DNA of 39,824 nucleotides, taken from the NCBI GenBank assembly GCA_036004685.1, contig DASYRE010000035.1, positions 1 through 39,824 on the forward strand, read 5' to 3'. Position 1 is the first letter of the stretch. Each line of letters starts with the position of its first letter. The notes beneath the pieces were generated by a model. That model worked only from the letters and a program-made list of their open reading frames with translations. It was not told the origin of the DNA and ran no database searches. Positions 24,285-36,066 of the stretch are shown in pieces. The DNA comes from Candidatus Polarisedimenticolia bacterium (GTDB lineage: Bacteria; Acidobacteriota; Polarisedimenticolia; Gp22-AA2; AA152). The position numbers and the translations under genes are program-made.

Positions 24285-24512
24285 TCATAGCGGCCCGGGC
24301 GGAAAATATGGCCTCCCGGGTCCCCCTCCGCAACACGGCCGGACCCATTCCCCGCCGGAATAACCCGCCGACATCATCGAATCTGATGCGTCCGTCAGGA
24401 TTTTATGGTGCGGATTTGAGTCTTCCACGGGAAACGACCCGAAATCCTGAAACAGAGCGCGTTGCATCGAACTAATTATTGCATTTGCATCAGTTAATGA
24501 CCACCGTCTCAT
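24285..24512 (-). CDS. Possible small protein, 75 aa, unknown
   Basis: A short minus-strand frame with unusually good signals. AAGGAG lies 8 bases before the ATG, and a TTTACG-17-TATTAT promoter lies 50 bases further upstream. The predicted protein begins MRRWSLTDANAIISSMQRAL, has a polar middle part and ends in a Gly/Pro-rich tail (GGGPGRPYFPPGPL) preceded by a CC pair. There is no signal peptide or known domain. It is divergent from the GAIWG-repeat gene and shares its regulatory region. It might be a small regulator or a peptide precursor, or a chance frame: codon bias cannot be judged at this length. Confidence 0.35.
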   Translation of the reverse strand: MRRWSLTDANAIISSMQRALFQDFGSFPVEDSNPHHKILTDASDSMMSAGYSGGEWVRPCCGGGPGRPYFPPGPL

Positions 24513-24588: not shown

Positions 24589-24741
24589 CGCCCTCCATGG
24601 TAGGACGCTAGGCCTGAGACGGTCATTGAAGCATCATTTGTAATTTCAATTGATTAGGAGAAAAGTCCGAAAATCCCTACGGTAATCTGCGTACAGCTCG
24701 AAATAACCTGCTTTTTTTCAATAGGTTTCACGACATCCAAC

Positions 24742-24864: not shown

Positions 24865-24879
24865 TGGCACTCGCATTGC
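24865..24879 (+). promoter_or_regulatory. Sigma-54 promoter of the GAIWG-repeat gene
   Basis: TGGCAC, five bases and TTGC reproduce the sigma-54 consensus, with GG and GC exactly 10 bases apart. Transcription would begin near 24891, giving a leader of about 45 bases with a GAGGGAGGAAGAA ribosome site before the ATG at 24936. Confidence 0.75.
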
Positions 24880-24935
24880 CATTCTCAGGGCCAGCGGCGA
24901 TGGACACATAACCTAAATCAGCGAGGGAGGAAGAA

Positions 24936-25235
24936 ATGAAGACGGCGAGAATCCTGGCGGTGCTCGTGGCGGCGATGGTGATCAGTTCAGTTCTCTTCGC
25001 GGCTCCGGCGGCTAAGTCGACCAGCCCGACGACCGACGGCGCAATCTGGGGCGGCAAGGTTCCCCCTCCCACCAACGGCGCAATTTGGGGTGGCAACAGC
25101 GCAGGTGGCGGTAACAAGCCGACTCGCGTCGTGATCGATCGGCAGTCCGGAGTCGACCACAAGAGTCTCGCAGACTACTTGAAGTCGCTGGCTCATGGCC
25201 TTGGCCTTATCACCGAAGGCGCCATCTGGGGCTGA
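24936..25235 (+). CDS. Secreted small protein with three GAIWG(G) repeats
   Basis: A 99-aa exported protein that I do not recognise. A classical signal peptide (KTARILAVLVAAMVISSVLFA, cleavage near AAPAA) is followed by a short mature part. The mature part contains DGAIWGGK, NGAIWGGN and, as its last six residues, EGAIWG. Between copies two and three lies a Gly/Asn-rich linker and a possible helix (HKSLADYLKSLAHGLGLI). The start has a strong ribosome site. The gene has its own sigma-54 promoter and terminator, so it is a tightly controlled single-gene unit. It lies directly upstream of two sigma-54 activators. The repeats suggest either a surface or binding protein or a precursor of short Trp peptides. 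No radical SAM, cyclase or dedicated peptidase gene is adjacent. Confidence 0.8.
   Translation: MKTARILAVLVAAMVISSVLFAAPAAKSTSPTTDGAIWGGKVPPPTNGAIWGGNSAGGGNKPTRVVIDRQSGVDHKSLADYLKSLAHGLGLITEGAIWG
25038..25232 (+). repeat. Three GAIWG(G)-coding repeats
   Basis: Copies at 25038-25055, 25077-25094 and 25218-25232. The DNA is closely conserved (GGCGCAATCTGGGGC with single-base changes), and each copy is preceded by a codon for Asp, Asn or Glu. The third copy is followed at once by the stop codon. Confidence 0.85.
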
Positions 25236-25270: not shown

Positions 25271-25300
25271 AAGGAGAACCCGATCGGGTTCTCCTTTTTT
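25271..25300 (+). terminator. Rho-independent terminator after the GAIWG-repeat gene
   Basis: AAGGAGAACCC and GGGTTCTCCTT form an 11-bp stem with a GATC loop, followed by a T-run. This textbook terminator separates the peptide gene from the large activator, which must rely on its own promoter or on read-through. Confidence 0.92.
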
Positions 25301-25363
25301 GTTGCTTTTTTCTACGCTGAGCATAACTTCTAACGTGCGATCGAATACCTGTAGGGATCGGTC

Positions 25364-28300
25364 TTGTCAAGAGATGGCATCCTTAAACCTCGTTTTACAA
25401 AGCTTCACACCCTCGGACGCGAAAAAGACGGACGAGCTCTTTGGCTTGCCCAAGACGGTCTCTTGGACAATCGCCTCGTTGTCCTAAAACAATTCCAGGT
25501 ACCAGCCTGGCTCGCTAACGATCATCTTCAGTTGTTGTCCATTTGTGATTCATATTTGAGCCTCTCCCACCCAGGCATTGCGAAGCCTCTGCTTTTCTGC
25601 GAGTACATTGATTCTCTCGTCTATGTCTCCTACGAGTATATTGATGGTAAACCTTTCTTGCCAACTATCCACTCGCTATCGAATACTTCGTTTTTTGATA
25701 TCGTCCTCCAGCTCTGCTCTACTCTCTACTACCTCCACTCTCGCGGTTACGCACATTTGGACCTTCATCCAGCTAATATTCTCTTGGAACCTCACTCCGA
25801 CGGCCGTCACACGTTAAAACTACTAGATGTTCCGCTACTCCCCCTACAGCTCTTGCAACGAGTTCCTGACATCATTGCATTCCATCCTCACTACTCGGCG
25901 CCAGAAGTTATAGCCGGTGAATCTTTTGACTATCGTGCACATCTTTATTCTGTCGGCGTTTTACTTTGTTCGGCTTTGGATGTAGCTTCACATACTTCTT
26001 CGTATCTCTTAGCTCCACACGCTCCTACTCCAAACGGTTTATCTTTTGAAGCGGTTTCCCCTGCTTTCCTAGTACCAATTCTAACTACGCTCCTGAATAC
26101 TAGTAGGGACAAGCGCTTTCCATCCGCATACTTTCTTTATGAAGATCTAGTTGCACATTTGAAAGACAATAAGATCGACTATCCCGCTTCATACCCGTTC
26201 GGCACAGTCGTTCATTCCCCTCCGTTTATCGCCACCACCGAGTCGCACTCAGGTATTAGTGCTCTTGATTCGTATCTAACGAATATTGAGTCAGAACCCC
26301 ACCTACAATTAAACTTGTCAGGCCTTCCGGGTTCAGGCGTACATCGGCTATCACGTCTTCTGGCGCTCTATGCAACCCTTCGCGGTTGTCACGAAGCGTT
26401 CGTAAGTCCCAGTAAACAACTTCTTTCATCTTCTCTGAATTGCGAGGCTCCCAGGAGTGCCCCGCGGCCTACGGTGGTCTTGCCTGGGACGGATGTTTCT
26501 CAGTCGCAGATTGATACATTTCTTCACCATTTTGACCACAGCCTCGTCATCACAACGGAACTGACAACCATCCCATTGTCGTTGCACCGAGTGGCTGAAA
26601 TGCTTGAGTATCGTGTAACGGACTTACATGTATCTCCTCTTCCTATGTCAAGTGCGCTTCAGTTCATAGACCTTTTCCTGCATATCAATACCCTCAGCAG
26701 CGCGGTGAAGGAAGGAATTGCCATGCGCTGCTTCTGCTTACCCGGATTCCTGTCCAGTGAACTTCGTGGGTTTATCGAACGAGGTATTCTCAAGAAGCGG
26801 GGGCCGGCGTGGGAACCGATGGAGTCGCCGCTAGATTCGCCCGGATCGGAGAATACAACAGCATTGATGCGCAGTACACTTCAGAATCTAACTCCTCAAG
26901 ATGTCGCATTTCTGACCATATTTGCGATCGCCCCTTTTGCAATGGATATAGGGATGGCTATAGCATTGGCCTCCAGTGATGAGCACCGCGCTCGGCATCT
27001 TCTCGAATCGGCCTGTGCGATTGGCTACATGGGCTCTCAGAACGACTCAGTCTTCTTAAACTCTTCCCTTTTTCGAGAAGCGATATCAGCGTTTCAATCA
27101 CCAGAGGCCACGCTCTCCCTCGCACGCAACAGCCTAAACGTTCTCCGAACTCGCACTACTCATCAGCCTTCACAGCATGATGCGCTCCTTGCCGCTTTTG
27201 CTGTCCACGCTCATGATAATGCTGCTGTAATTCATCATGCGCTAGCCGCCTCCCACTATTTCGAATCGATGAATCGTCTCGGGGATGCTTTGCATTATTG
27301 TCGTCTAGCGGCCGACGCAGTTCCAGTTTCTGAGATCCACAGGCACTCGGAAATCTTCGAAAGAGTGCTAGAACTTCTTGACCGGATAGGTAATACCGAC
27401 GAGTTCAATGCCATTGCTTGCATACTCCAGAAGACTCTTCCAGAGGATGCCTATTTGCAGCGAATCAACCTTTTCAAGCTACTCGCACATCATCACTCGG
27501 AATTGCTTCAACTCCGCGAATCAACCCGTTTCGCGGCTATGGGTATGAGACTTGCCAAAAGGCAAAACTTGCGAAACGAGATATCAAACTGTCTTGAGAT
27601 TCTCGCCCAAAACCAGCTTCGCCAAGGGCGTCCAACTAATGCCATTAAGACAATTTCAGTCTGCATATCGATACGTCGCAATGAACAAATCGTGAACGAT
27701 TACGAAAGTGCCTTCGGTATCCTGGCAGGTGCTTATTACATGGAAGGGAACTATACAAAAGCATTGGCATGCGCTGTAGAAGTGCTAAGGCGACTACCAA
27801 ACCGACCACGCGACAGGAATAAAATCCCAGTTCTTAATAATCTAGGGATCCTGTACATGGAAAGCGGTGATCTGGCCCTCGCCCGAAAGGTGTTATCCAA
27901 ATGTCGTCAGCTTGCCGAAGCTTGGGCGGAATTTCGAGGCATCTCGCATTGTCATTCGAACTTGGTAGTCTTTCATTTGTATGAGGGCGATCTTTCACAA
28001 TCGGTCATTCATGCGCGAAGAGTTTTTCAGGTCCTAGAAATGGCTCGTGCCTTGTACGGATACGGCCAATCTCAGCTGAGCCTAGCCGAAGCCCTGCTCT
28101 TACGTGGCCAGATTGACGATTCCCTTGATGCGATTGCCAAGGCGCAGGCTGCCTCTGTCGAGAGCGGCGACGCGATGAACGAATTGCTCGCACGCTTGCA
28201 GAAGGCTTGGGTGCTATATCATGCCGGGGCCTATGAACAAGCCAAGGCCTCCTTTACTGAAATTGAGCTTCCCCTCGATAAAGCTGGATATCGCGTTCAT

Positions 28301-30367
28301 CAGGTGAGTTGCGGACTTGGATTGTCTAATGTCGAGACCGCGCGAGGAGAGTTCCAATTCGCCAGGGAGAGGCTGGAGCGAATCTACGCAAGACTGCCCC
28401 GACAGCACATCATATCGGATCTCGTGTATAGGATTTCGAAGGGTCGGTATCACGCCGCCATGAACGAATATGCGCAAGCACGACGTTCCTTTGCCGCCGC
28501 GGAGGCTTTGGCCCGCTCCCATGGGTTCCGGCCGTACGTCTTCGAGGCTCAACTGTCTCTCGCCCAGTGCTTTCTTGCCTTGGGAGAATCCGAAGAAGCC
28601 GCTTACTACCTTAAGCGGCTTTACGGACTCAACGAAAGACTGCGATATCGGCTGCTGGAGCCTTGGCTTCACCTGGCCTTTGCGGATCACCTTGCCTCCG
28701 CAGGCGACTTCTGGGAAGAAAAGCGACATCTATTAAACGCCAGAACCGCCTTGCTGGAACTTGCGCACAATATCGGCGATTTGACTCTACGAGAGCACTT
28801 TCTGAATCGGCCTGACTCGAGGAGTCTCTTGCAACGCAGCGAGGATGTCGAAGACCTCCTCTACTCACATTCTTCTCGCATTGCCCATGCGCCTCCCGTC
28901 AGTAACGCATTGGAAAGCATCGCGCGCATCAACGAGCAGCTTCACCGCCGTGACTCCATGAAATCGACCTTGTCACTCATCGTAGACGAGGCGCTCCGGC
29001 TCAGCGGGGCCGAGCGAGGCATCATATTCCTTTTCGATCCCTCGGGGCGCGAGGAGCTTAAGGTCGCCAGGAATCTCGGGCGCCGGTCGTTGGCGGATGC
29101 GCGCCGGTACACCCGCACTGCCCTCCTGGCAATCCGCAGAGGCGACATTGTCTTCGCAGCCGACACCTTCACCGATCCCACCTTTAGCGGCTCGGAAAGC
29201 ATCACCCATCATCGGATTCGCTCGGTCGTCTGTGTTCCGCTTCGCTCTCGTCTGAGCATCATCGGGGCACTCTATCTGGACAGCCGACGCCGAGGGCTTC
29301 ATGCTCGTCCCGACCTGCTGAAATCTCTGGAGATCTTCAGTCAGCAGGCAGCCGCCGCCTTGGAACGAGCCGCGCGTTATTTTCACATCAACGAGGAGAA
29401 CCGCAAGCTTCGCGAGAACGCACGCCTGGACCACCCCAAACTGATCGGACAAGGAAGCCATTTCACCCATCTCAAGCAGCTGATCGCAGCCGCGGGCTCC
29501 AGCCACCTTCCGGTTCTGATCCTCGGCGAGAGTGGAACGGGAAAAGAGCTGATCGCCCGTGCCATCCATGAGTCCGGTCCGAGAGCCGAGGAACCTTTCC
29601 TGTCGGTGGACTGTGGGGCGCTTCCCGACAACCTCGTGGAGAGCGAGCTGTTCGGATATCGCAAAGGAGCTTTCACGGGTGCGGAAACCAACAAGGAAGG
29701 ACTCTTTGTCGCAGCTCGAGGGGGCACAATCTTTCTCGACGAGATCGCCAATACATCTCCAGTGCTGCAAACGAAGCTGCTTCGAGCGATTCAAGAGCGT
29801 GAGATTCGGCCACTCGGCTCGACCGAATCCATGCCGTTCAAGGCAAGAATTGTTGCCGCCACAAATCGTGACCTGCGGAAGGAATCGCGTGAGGGAAGAT
29901 TCCGGCAAGACCTCCTTTTCCGTCTGAACGGATTGATCATCGAAACGACTCCGCTCAGGAATCGGAAGGGCGACATACCGCTCCTTATTGGGCATTTTCT
30001 TCAGGAATATCGACACCGCACGGGCCGGAAGATCTGGTCGATGTCGGATCAAGCCCTTCAGGCTCTCGGGCATCATGACTGGCCGGGCAACGTCCGCGAG
30101 CTTCAAAACTGTATCGAGCGCGCGATGGCCCTTGCGCGTGGCGACACCATCGATCTGGGAGATTTACCGGACAGCATCCGATCGACGTCTGTCGTCTCGT
30201 GGGACAAGAAAAACGGAGAGCACCGGCTCATCGAAGAAGCTCTGAGCCTTTGTGCGGGAGACAAGACTCGGGCCGCCGATTACATTGGTTGGAATCGCCA
30301 GAAGCTCTACAGGAAGATGGCGCATTACAACATTCCCCGCGATTTCGGACGGCGTAATACAGCGTGA
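25364..30367 (+). CDS. Giant sigma-54 activator: kinase-like, STAND-like, TPR, GAF, AAA+, Fis HTH
   Basis: A soluble 1667-aa regulator. Residues 10-270 are a Ser/Thr kinase-like fold: Lys42 in VVLKQF, catalytic-loop HLDLHPANIL (131-140, His in place of the usual Lys), LLDVPL where DFG is expected, and SAPEV. Residues about 300-640 look like a STAND NTPase, but the P-loop reads GLPGSGVHRL, without Lys. TPR-like helices fill about 640-1160. GAF is at about 1199-1333. The AAA+ domain is intact: GESGTGKE at 1388-1395, GAFTGA at 1435-1440, FLDE at 1458-1460. The Fis-type HTH (1622-1657) contains DYIGWNRQKLYRK. The AAA+ part should open sigma-54 promoters, and the rest should sense and gate. Start is a TTG with AGGGA upstream. 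The first two-thirds are AT-richer than the AAA+ part. Confidence 0.9.
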   Translation: MSRDGILKPRFTKLHTLGREKDGRALWLAQDGLLDNRLVVLKQFQVPAWLANDHLQLLSICDSYLSLSHPGIAKPLLFCEYIDSLVYVSYEYIDGKPFLPTIHSLSNTSFFDIVLQLCSTLYYLHSRGYAHLDLHPANILLEPHSDGRHTLKLLDVPLLPLQLLQRVPDIIAFHPHYSAPEVIAGESFDYRAHLYSVGVLLCSALDVASHTSSYLLAPHAPTPNGLSFEAVSPAFLVPILTTLLNTSRDKRFPSAYFLYEDLVAHLKDNKIDYPASYPFGTVVHSPPFIATTESHSGISALDSYLTNIESEPHLQLNLSGLPGSGVHRLSRLLALYATLRGCHEAFVSPSKQLLSSSLNCEAPRSAPRPTVVLPGTDVSQSQIDTFLHHFDHSLVITTELTTIPLSLHRVAEMLEYRVTDLHVSPLPMSSALQFIDLFLHINTLSSAVKEGIAMRCFCLPGFLSSELRGFIERGILKKRGPAWEPMESPLDSPGSENTTALMRSTLQNLTPQDVAFLTIFAIAPFAMDIGMAIALASSDEHRARHLLESACAIGYMGSQNDSVFLNSSLFREAISAFQSPEATLSLARNSLNVLRTRTTHQPSQHDALLAAFAVHAHDNAAVIHHALAASHYFESMNRLGDALHYCRLAADAVPVSEIHRHSEIFERVLELLDRIGNTDEFNAIACILQKTLPEDAYLQRINLFKLLAHHHSELLQLRESTRFAAMGMRLAKRQNLRNEISNCLEILAQNQLRQGRPTNAIKTISVCISIRRNEQIVNDYESAFGILAGAYYMEGNYTKALACAVEVLRRLPNRPRDRNKIPVLNNLGILYMESGDLALARKVLSKCRQLAEAWAEFRGISHCHSNLVVFHLYEGDLSQSVIHARRVFQVLEMARALYGYGQSQLSLAEALLLRGQIDDSLDAIAKAQAASVESGDAMNELLARLQKAWVLYHAGAYEQAKASFTEIELPLDKAGYRVHQVSCGLGLSNVETARGEFQFARERLERIYARLPRQHIISDLVYRISKGRYHAAMNEYAQARRSFAAAEALARSHGFRPYVFEAQLSLAQCFLALGESEEAAYYLKRLYGLNERLRYRLLEPWLHLAFADHLASAGDFWEEKRHLLNARTALLELAHNIGDLTLREHFLNRPDSRSLLQRSEDVEDLLYSHSSRIAHAPPVSNALESIARINEQLHRRDSMKSTLSLIVDEALRLSGAERGIIFLFDPSGREELKVARNLGRRSLADARRYTRTALLAIRRGDIVFAADTFTDPTFSGSESITHHRIRSVVCVPLRSRLSIIGALYLDSRRRGLHARPDLLKSLEIFSQQAAAALERAARYFHINEENRKLRENARLDHPKLIGQGSHFTHLKQLIAAAGSSHLPVLILGESGTGKELIARAIHESGPRAEEPFLSVDCGALPDNLVESELFGYRKGAFTGAETNKEGLFVAARGGTIFLDEIANTSPVLQTKLLRAIQEREIRPLGSTESMPFKARIVAATNRDLRKESREGRFRQDLLFRLNGLIIETTPLRNRKGDIPLLIGHFLQEYRHRTGRKIWSMSDQALQALGHHDWPGNVRELQNCIERAMALARGDTIDLGDLPDSIRSTSVVSWDKKNGEHRLIEEALSLCAGDKTRAADYIGWNRQKLYRKMAHYNIPRDFGRRNTA

Positions 30368-30517: not shown

Positions 30518-30518
30518 G

Positions 30519-30534
30519 TGGTATTAGCCTTGCA
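30519..30534 (+). promoter_or_regulatory. Sigma-54-like promoter of the second activator gene
   Basis: TGGTAT, five bases and TTGCA keep GG and GC 10 bases apart. The -24 box is weaker than consensus (TGGCAC), while the -12 box is perfect. The predicted start near 30545 leaves room for the GGAGGCGGAG ribosome site before the ATG at 30563. Confidence 0.5.
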
Positions 30535-30562
30535 CCGGTTCGACGCCGGGAGGCGGAGAGCC

Positions 30563-31738
30563 ATGTCAGCTGAATCCGCGAAAAGCCAGCTTGAGACCAA
30601 GTCACGCATTCTCGAGTTCCTTCGTAAATTCGGTGAAAGGAGCTATGGAGGAGAGGTCAAACTCTCCTCTGCCGAGCTGGGAGAATTGCGAGAGATTCTT
30701 TCGATCCTGACGGCCTTTGCAGGCAAGGATGTTCCAGTCGTGCCGCCCGAGGCGCCAGCGACTCCATTCGGGGGCATCAACTCATCGCGCATGGCTAGCC
30801 TCGAAAAGCTCATCGCCAAAGCGGCTGCTTGTGACCTCTCCGTGCTCATCATCGGCGAAAGTGGGACGGGCAAAGAGCTCGTGGCCCGGGAAATCCATCG
30901 CCGCAGTCTCCGGTCCGCGAAGCCCTTCTTTTCTGAGAATTGCGCCGCACTCACTGAAACTCTCCTGGAAAGTGAGTTGTTCGGTCATGTCAGGGGCTCC
31001 TTCACGGGCGCCGAGAGGGATCGCAAAGGAATTCTCGAACTCGCCGACCAAGGGACTCTTTTCCTGGACGAGCTGGGGGACATGTCCCTGGCTATGCAAT
31101 CCAAACTCCTCCGGGTGCTTCAAGAAGGCGAAGTTCGATCTGTCGGATCGCGCCATACTACGCGCATCGACGTGCGATTCATCTCGGCCACAAATCGCGA
31201 TCTCCATCGCCTCGTGGAGCAAGGACGCTTCCGACTTGACCTTTTCTATCGCATCAACGTAATTACGATTGCGCTCCCGGCCCTTCGAGATCGAAGGGAA
31301 GACATCCCGCCCCTGATCGAGCATTTCATTGAGGGATACATGAGAAAGGCACGATGTCCCCGAAAGCACTTCGACGAGCGCGCATTGGATCTCTTGTGCG
31401 CCTACGAGTGGCCGGGTAACATTCGTGAATTGGAGAACACCGTTCAGCGCTGCATCGTCCTCAGTGAGAACATTGCGATGAGCACGCCGGACCTTCCGGA
31501 AAGAATCCGGCGTTTAGAAGGCTTGTTTGATGGAAGCACACGTCTCCGTTCACCCAAAACTGGGGAGCAGATTCTCATCGAACGCGCCTTGACTGACAGT
31601 CTTGGGGATAAAGCGAAAGCCGCCCGCTATATCGGTTGGAGCCGCCCGAAGTTATACAGAAAGATCAGAGAGTACGGCATATCGCTGAGTTATGGCCAAA
31701 TGGAGAGTAAGGCGGCTTCAGCGACGGACTCACCCTAG
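30563..31738 (+). CDS. Sigma-54 dependent activator without a sensory domain
   Basis: A 391-aa AAA+ activator. The N-terminal ~70 residues are a charged helical segment, not a receiver, GAF, PAS or FHA domain. The AAA+ core has GESGTGKE (Walker A) and the sigma-54-contact loop GSFTGA (residues 145-150), where Ser replaces the usual Ala. FLDELGDM (Walker B), the FISATNRDL segment and the arginine-containing RLDLFYRINV follow. The C-terminal Fis-type HTH reads YIGWSRPKLYRK, nearly the same as in the giant activator upstream. Lacking an input domain, it may be constitutively competent and controlled through its synthesis, or through a partner. An in-frame GTG at 30518 exists, but the ATG at 30563 has a clear GGAG site. 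It ends 13 bases before the convergent VOC gene. Confidence 0.93.
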   Translation: MSAESAKSQLETKSRILEFLRKFGERSYGGEVKLSSAELGELREILSILTAFAGKDVPVVPPEAPATPFGGINSSRMASLEKLIAKAAACDLSVLIIGESGTGKELVAREIHRRSLRSAKPFFSENCAALTETLLESELFGHVRGSFTGAERDRKGILELADQGTLFLDELGDMSLAMQSKLLRVLQEGEVRSVGSRHTTRIDVRFISATNRDLHRLVEQGRFRLDLFYRINVITIALPALRDRREDIPPLIEHFIEGYMRKARCPRKHFDERALDLLCAYEWPGNIRELENTVQRCIVLSENIAMSTPDLPERIRRLEGLFDGSTRLRSPKTGEQILIERALTDSLGDKAKAARYIGWSRPKLYRKIREYGISLSYGQMESKAASATDSP

Positions 31739-35424: not shown

Positions 35425-36066
35425 ATGAGGCTCAGAACATTGTTGATGGCGTTGATCCTCTCATTCCCTGCATTTCCTTCGATTGCTCAATCAAAAGGTA
35501 CTATTTCCAAAAAGGAAGTCCCTGGGGCCCTTATCCTGATCGACGGCATGAGAATAAGACGGCCATTTCGGAAGCCTATTCCGATCCAAGACAAGTTCGC
35601 GATTGAAGAGGCGGTTCGAGAGTATGCTGGGAGATACTCAACGTTTGTGCTGGAGCAATCTCCCAGTAATAGTCAAGAGGCCGAGGAGCTTGCTTTGTGG
35701 ATGAATCGAGGTCAACGCATTAAAGACGCCGTATCCGTTTCCGGCTGCGTGCTTAAGGACGACCCGCAGGGTTACTGCATCGTCGTGGTCCCGTCTATAG
35801 AATCTAACGTTGCGAAGCCGCAAACGTCTTCTTTGCTTTGTTCACCGGAGACCTCCACGGGCTCGGTTACAGAGGGCAGCTTCTGTAATTGTACTAATTG
35901 GATGCTATACAGATCGTGTACAGGTTCGTGCACTCCAGTCGGTTGGAGGCATTGCTGCCGCACTACCGATTGTCCTGTTGGGTGTCAGGGCCACCTCGCC
36001 ATTTGTGGTGGTGGTCATAGTTGTCCCGATCAAGAGTCTTGCCCAGATATCCTTTGCACACCATGA
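35425..36066 (+). CDS. Secreted cysteine-rich protein, unknown
   Basis: A 213-aa exported protein with a clear signal peptide (LRTLLMALILSFPAFPSIAQ). The middle (about 25-105) is an ordinary polar domain. The last ~110 residues carry 15 cysteines, many in close groups such as FCNCTNW, RHCCRTTDC and GHSCPDQESCPDILC, which suggests a disulfide-knotted or metal-binding extracellular module. I do not recognise the family. AAAGGGGGC lies before the ATG. Base composition and codon choice are visibly less GC-rich than in the flanking genes. The gene sits alone, on the opposite strand to its neighbours, between two copies of a direct repeat, so it probably arrived by insertion. Confidence 0.72.
   Translation: MRLRTLLMALILSFPAFPSIAQSKGTISKKEVPGALILIDGMRIRRPFRKPIPIQDKFAIEEAVREYAGRYSTFVLEQSPSNSQEAEELALWMNRGQRIKDAVSVSGCVLKDDPQGYCIVVVPSIESNVAKPQTSSLLCSPETSTGSVTEGSFCNCTNWMLYRSCTGSCTPVGWRHCCRTTDCPVGCQGHLAICGGGHSCPDQESCPDILCTP

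Follow-up and report, generated by a model that had tools for sequence, protein, structure and literature searches.

Multi-copy precursors that are cut by subtilases are exemplified by the yeast alpha-factor with Kex2 and by the cyanobactin precursor PatE with PatA and PatG. Sigma-54 activators that also carry Ser/Thr kinase, TPR, and GAF domains have an HstK-like architecture with an activator output. In the RRNPP systems of Gram-positive bacteria (Rap, Rgg, NprR, PlcR, PrgX), the gene of a small Sec-exported precursor adjoins that of a TPR-containing regulator, a compact HTH or effector protein with a C-terminal TPR part, and the peptide is imported by Opp and bound by the TPRs. In cyanobacteria, which are diderm, the Sec-exported precursor PatX is cut by PatP outside the cytosol to give HRGTGR, which acts on the regulator HetR inside the cell (PMC12756182).

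Here we describe a locus that resembles parts of these systems. It lies in a stretch of 39,824 nucleotides (the window) from a Candidatus Polarisedimenticolia bacterium of the Acidobacteriota (contig DASYRE010000035.1), and it encodes a small secreted protein with a repeated GAIWG motif next to a giant regulator with kinase, TPR, GAF, and sigma-54 activator domains.

Results

A secreted protein of 99 residues carries three GAIWG units

The gene at 24936..25235 (+ strand) encodes 99 amino acids that read MKTARILAVLVAAMVISSVLFA followed by APAAKSTSPTTDGAIWGGKVPPPTNGAIWGGNSAGGGNKPTRVVIDRQSGVDHKSLADYLKSLAHGLGLITEGAIWG, the junction being the putative signal cleavage point, placed by eye. Read from the sequence, the protein begins with a Sec-type signal peptide and has a mature chain of about 76 residues. 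GAIWG occurs exactly three times, preceded by D, N, and E, respectively, in the units DGAIWG (25035..25052), NGAIWG (25074..25091), and EGAIWG (25215..25232), all on the + strand; the units are spaced by 13 and 47 residues, and the last one forms the C-terminus. Translation of the open reading frame thus confirmed the original prediction of three copies in a short mature chain, each after an acidic or amide residue and the last ending the protein.

The repeat is real and under selection. Shuffling the mature chain 100,000 times never produced two GAIWG copies, and any 5-mer was present at least three times in only 10 of the shuffles. The copies are encoded by GGCGCAATCTGGGGC, GGCGCAATTTGGGGT, and GGCGCCATCTGGGGC, which in pairwise comparison show 6 synonymous and 0 non-synonymous codon differences; because the differences are synonymous only, the motif is conserved at the protein level and not through recent copying of DNA. 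Selection and recent copying had both been offered as explanations, and only the former holds.

Single-sequence AlphaFold2 modelling gave a signal helix, a C-terminal helix, and coil between them (mean pLDDT 59), which is weak evidence for an unfolded repeat region. The predicted C-terminal hydrophobic helix, KSLADYLKSLAHGLGL (25158..25205, +), is itself weakly modelled (pLDDT ~73), and relatives of the protein have a similar one. Searches with Pfam and NCBIfam returned no model above cut-off for the small protein. Partial tblastn matches were obtained in three Lentisphaeria contigs, weak matches across the phylum were mostly noise, and no relatives were present in the plasmids searched.

A sorting tag, one of the functions first suggested, was rejected as unlikely. 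PEP-CTERM and LPXTG signals consist of a single C-terminal motif, a transmembrane helix, and basic residues, whereas here there are three copies, of which the last ends the chain; no Pfam or NCBIfam model matched above cut-off, no membrane helix follows the motif, the C-terminus lacks a hydrophobic helix with basic residues after it, and the copies are internal and tandem.

The gene has a sigma-54 promoter and adjoins a giant regulator

A perfect sigma-54 (-24/-12) promoter, TGGCAC-N5-TTGC, lies at 24865..24879 (+), 71 bp before the ATG, and is the sole perfect match in the window. Two TGAGAC half-sites for an upstream activator were located, one at 24506..24511 on the - strand (GTCTCA on the + strand), at -359 from the promoter, and the other at 24615..24620 (+), at -250; in two related genomes, G003 and G002, their equivalents are at -359/-358 and -251/-250. 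The small-protein gene has the marks of a sigma-54-dependent gene, namely correctly spaced GG and GC elements with enhancer sites 5' of them. An RBS-like gggagg is found at about 24924-24929 (+), and an intrinsic terminator read from the sequence, the strong hairpin AGGAGAACCCGATCGGGTTCTCCT followed by a T run, is located at 25272..25301 (+).

Downstream, at 25364..30367 (+), is the gene of a regulator of 1667 aa (regulator A) that combines Pkinase, TPR, GAF, and sigma-54 activator domains with a Fis-type HTH (IGWNRxKLYRKM). It is followed at 30518..31738 (+) by a short sigma-54 activator with an HTH of the A type, IGWSRPKLYRKI, which accompanies regulator A in relatives too. A gene for an EamA transporter lies 5' of the small-protein gene on the opposite strand. 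No modifying enzyme, exporter, or immunity gene was found among the window ORFs checked, and no dedicated importer or protease adjoins the small-protein gene in the window. The original prediction of no maturation enzymes nearby holds for these ORFs and needs qualification elsewhere, as sister families fuse the repeat to a secreted subtilase (see below). It had mentioned neither the sigma-54 promoter, nor the TGAGAC sites, nor the link to the regulators, nor the hexapeptide common to subtilase tails. Elsewhere in the window, 35425-36066 (+) encodes a secreted protein of 213 aa whose C-terminal half is rich in Cys; a kinase that carries a PD40 propeller is encoded nearby.

Counterparts in related species vary in copy number

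Counterparts adjoin kinase-TPR-sigma54 regulators in five further species of the order (genomes G002, G003, G006, G007, and G008). The gene order in the last three is regulator B, small protein, regulator A, and the short activator comes after regulator A where the contig continues. The protein of G006 has eight tandem SAIWGGKD units and that of G007 has GAIW[GS] four times, with repeat periods of 7-8 in G007 and G006; G008, G002, and G003 have two copies each. The most diverged counterparts, those of G002 and G003, are 32-41% identical to the window protein and keep two diverged D-x-[AT]-x-W-G motifs each. The number of copies among the relatives thus ranges from two to eight with the motif core unchanged, a comparison that had been proposed as a check on the original prediction and that comes out in its favour. 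The distance from the sigma-54 promoter to the start codon is 67-80 bp in six of the seven genes (window and relatives) and 46 bp in G006.

The contig of G004 stops just before the repeats of the expected precursor. Contig ends at or close to the place where the precursor gene is expected are seen in G004, G005, and G001 (L059 1-140, L151 7667, and L054 6173) and may be due to repeats that disrupt assembly.

Regulators beside the repeat proteins fall into two clades

Relatives of the kinase-TPR-sigma54 regulators were found in every genome of the class that was searched. In a tree of their sigma-54 domains, one clade (support 87/85) unites the regulators that neighbour GAIWG proteins (B), those that neighbour W-tailed subtilases (G012, G016), and those of two other small proteins with NIGGAGP and GLGGC motifs. 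A second clade contains regulator A, the short activators (HTH IGW[NS]RxKLYR), and a long-branched regulator beside a GLGIGS protein; with G001 and G005 left aside, this A/short clade is found only in loci or genomes with known or inferred stand-alone precursors. For the TPR region (residues about 540-1190), a single-sequence fold prediction was too poor for use (pLDDT 45). The window's genome has four SBP_bac_5 genes of the oligopeptide-binding type.

The TGAGAC enhancer defines a regulon

Seven upstream regions of 450 bp contain 23 TGAGAC sites in all, compared with a mean of 1.8 and a maximum of 6 in shuffles; since the motif had been found on those same regions, the independent test is a pattern search of the genomes. 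The inferred dimer site GTCTCA-N3-TGAGAC was present at 27 places in the 41 genomes of the class and its reversed control at 0, where the palindrome had been derived from a few loci (G018, G038) that supply some of the 27. A search for the enhancer together with a sigma-54 promoter at fixed spacing matched 12 places, spread over 10 genomes, against a single match for the control. The window's genome has 25 strict sigma-54 sites, and two TGAGAC boxes lie 5' of just one of them, that of the small protein; few further enhancer targets were seen in this genome. Matches to the enhancer pattern outside the class were mostly single sites at unrelated genes and look like chance.

Several of the palindromes lie just 5' of genes for kinase-TPR-sigma54 regulators, a position suggestive of autoregulation. 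Since palindromes were also present in genomes that lack a strong A-type HTH, the idea of regulator A as the only binder of TGAGAC was abandoned, and B-type regulators (LLGISRATIFRK) are at least as likely to be the binders. At L053 6840-7600 and its equivalents in L055-L057, GTCTCA sites lie 5' of regulator B genes with an apparent sigma-70-type promoter, from which autoregulation of regulator B appears possible. Other genes with such sites were observed: in L127 (G007:C35), from about 1617 onward, a putative AraC-type regulator ORF is preceded by a sigma-54 promoter with three TGAGAC boxes, and in L226, L227, and L232 a TGAGAC palindrome and sigma-54-like sites lie 5' of genes for secreted proteins of about 148 aa (LDEPIVIGDQVYPAGELVL...).

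The same hexapeptide forms the tails of S8 subtilases

Other families of the class have genes for secreted S8 subtilases behind a TGAGAC enhancer and a sigma-54-like promoter. The C-termini of these enzymes are tandem hexapeptides, for example DTLLWS, DTALWG, DAALWS, DGALWS, DIAIWG, DSTLWT, and DTAVWG, with the consensus D-[TSG]-A-[LIV]-W-[GS]. Among 102 units from eight subtilases, D occupies the first position in 90, the second is variable, A is third in 77, and the sixth is S, G, or T in 92, while L/I/V and W are present in all 102, as the pattern used to pick units demands both. The seven subtilases with a readable tail (L220-L224, L152, and L065, the last apparently frameshifted) have D-x-A-h-W-x tails of 7-28 matching units, a tail of 13 units belonging to the G028 subtilase, and in the G016 subtilase (L067) the contig end cuts the gene after one unit. 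Change at the variable positions of the units is at the protein level.

DGAIWG, NGAIWG, and EGAIWG of the window protein match this unit, the acidic or amide residue being its position 1. In contrast to the subtilase tails, the window protein stands alone, without a strict period of 6 and without fusion to a subtilase. Among all fetched loci, the only ORFs with at least three units were the small precursors and these subtilases. G001, a genome from the same family as the window, encodes a subtilase that contains ISIWGGD and YGAVWGGGG and adjoins the orthologous A and short regulators; the first 450 bp upstream of its gene have no TGAGAC box. On plasmids, a subtilase-tail query gave weak repeat-type matches only, and subtilase matches never covered 80% of the query.

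Small secreted proteins with other motifs share the regulatory setting

In G018 and G022, from two further families, small secreted proteins in the same regulatory setting carry NIGGAGP five times, GLGIGS five times, or GLGGC[VF]FGC twice (L070 6134-6508, L081 8117-8494, and L080 4773-5072), and the first copy appears to adjoin the signal cleavage site directly. Exact copies differ pairwise by 32 synonymous codon differences for NIGGAGP and by 44 for GLGIGS; since the copies were chosen by identical residues, non-synonymous differences are zero by construction, and the synonymous divergence is the informative part. Secreted proteins of about 115 aa with C-termini such as DDGSPF and DSPNPF were also seen beside kinase-TPR-sigma54 regulators, at L083 3236 (-), L086 11589 (+), L077 3399 (+), and L069 5851 (+).

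Discussion

Our results define, with high confidence, the anatomy of the small-protein gene and the regulon to which it belongs. Its most likely function, proposed tentatively and as a whole signalling mechanism, is that of a secreted precursor that holds several copies of a peptide and works together with the kinase-TPR-sigma54 regulators; a peptide precursor had been among the functions first suggested and has become the leading reading. The window protein would be a secreted, enzyme-less carrier of the hexapeptide D-x-A-[ILV]-W-[GS]. Regulator A, the short activator, and/or a B paralogue would bind the TGAGAC enhancer and activate the sigma-54 promoter, the chain would be exported by Sec, and peptidases outside the cytoplasm would cut it into several near-identical Trp peptides. 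These may return to the cell, for example via an Opp-type importer, and bind the regulators at their TPR part, which would complete a loop of positive feedback. In the sister families, the subtilase fused to the peptide array may cut its own tail.

Generalized to the class, and put forward with somewhat more reserve, this would amount to a new type of multi-copy peptide signalling in a diderm-like lineage. Repeated peptides with Trp, or else rich in Gly, either stand-alone or on self-processing subtilases, would be the input of giant kinase-TPR-GAF-sigma54 activators, each of which would switch on its own precursor via GTCTCA-N3-TGAGAC, with the motif varying by lineage like pheromone types. 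Against a signal counts the look of the longest tails, since 13-28 units on a subtilase resemble a surface or binding module as much as a signal store; the lack of a dedicated importer or protease next to the gene in the window and the small number of further enhancer targets in its genome also weigh against it. The main rival takes the array for just such a structural or surface module, which binds the cell surface, matrix, or polysaccharide or assembles into a stalk, and which anchors or presents the subtilase, the small protein being its free version. The regular period of 6 in the long C-terminal tails of the secreted proteases, a weak low-complexity likeness to stalk repeats of surface proteins, and the secretion of all carriers, in which no toxin domain was found, all suit such a module. 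However, the three widely spaced units of the window protein lie in predicted coil and are too few for a solenoid, G018 and G022 swap the motif for unrelated Gly-rich ones in the same setting, and a tiny stand-alone copy has dedicated regulators. We consider this rival somewhat less likely than the peptide precursor.

A bacteriocin-like or other antimicrobial peptide under sigma-54 control, whose hydrophobic helix and Trp motif disturb membranes, would fit a small secreted protein of this composition and the diversity of motifs between lineages. It is nevertheless improbable, given that neither an immunity gene nor an exporter was recognised next to the gene, that the unit also occurs on proteases, and that a pore former needs no multiple near-identical copies; a match of a relative's signal region to NF053514 is sub-threshold (16.9 bits against a cut-off of 40). 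Sharing of the tail unit within one regulon, and the G001 subtilase with IWGG motifs beside orthologous regulators in the same family, would also agree with a role as decoy or inhibitor, in which the small protein competes with W-tailed subtilases or blocks a receptor for their tails, but a partial search has so far revealed no W-tailed subtilase in genomes with the small protein, which leaves this role quite improbable. Drift of a low-complexity, non-functional ORF, to which the lack of any family model above cut-off might point, has a negligible chance of being correct: the shuffles, together with the conservation of promoter, enhancer, position, and motif in five further species, refute a chance origin of the repeat.

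In the literature consulted, mostly non-subscription papers, neither the motif nor the pairing of such regulators with a peptide is described, and an earlier description elsewhere is possible. As the source of a multi-copy peptide signal, the precursor proposed here may be of a new kind. If the product is a signal, a pheromone system based on multi-copy peptides would exist in a diderm that is not a cyanobacterium; if it is not, the unit is still an uncharacterised Trp-hexapeptide module borne by secreted proteases.

Compared with RRNPP systems, the arrangement of precursor and TPR-containing regulator is alike, with a putative receptor role for the latter, and the four SBP_bac_5 genes would be candidates for an Opp-like import that precedes TPR binding. 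In contrast, the regulator here is a 1667-aa kinase-TPR-GAF-sigma54-HTH protein, each precursor has several copies, and the system is, as far as is known, not a Gram-positive one. PatX-HetR, with its small Sec-exported precursor, offers a precedent for the proposed release outside the cytosol and action inside the cell, whereas sequence relation is lacking, control here is by sigma-54, and the receptor is of another type; the PatX/PatS family has the motif RG(S/T)GR, and with GAIWG the window protein falls outside it. Repeated core peptides and a subtilase are shared with alpha-factor/Kex2 and with PatE/PatA-PatG, but in the sister families array and subtilase form a single polypeptide, enzymes for modification were not seen, and the PatA model gave a sub-threshold match only. 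The neighbouring regulators have the domain order of HstK-like proteins and differ in their link with a defined enhancer and with secreted proteins that carry W repeats. Some of the giant Ser/Thr kinase-TPR-sigma54 regulators are now connected with a defined enhancer, promoter, and secreted product.
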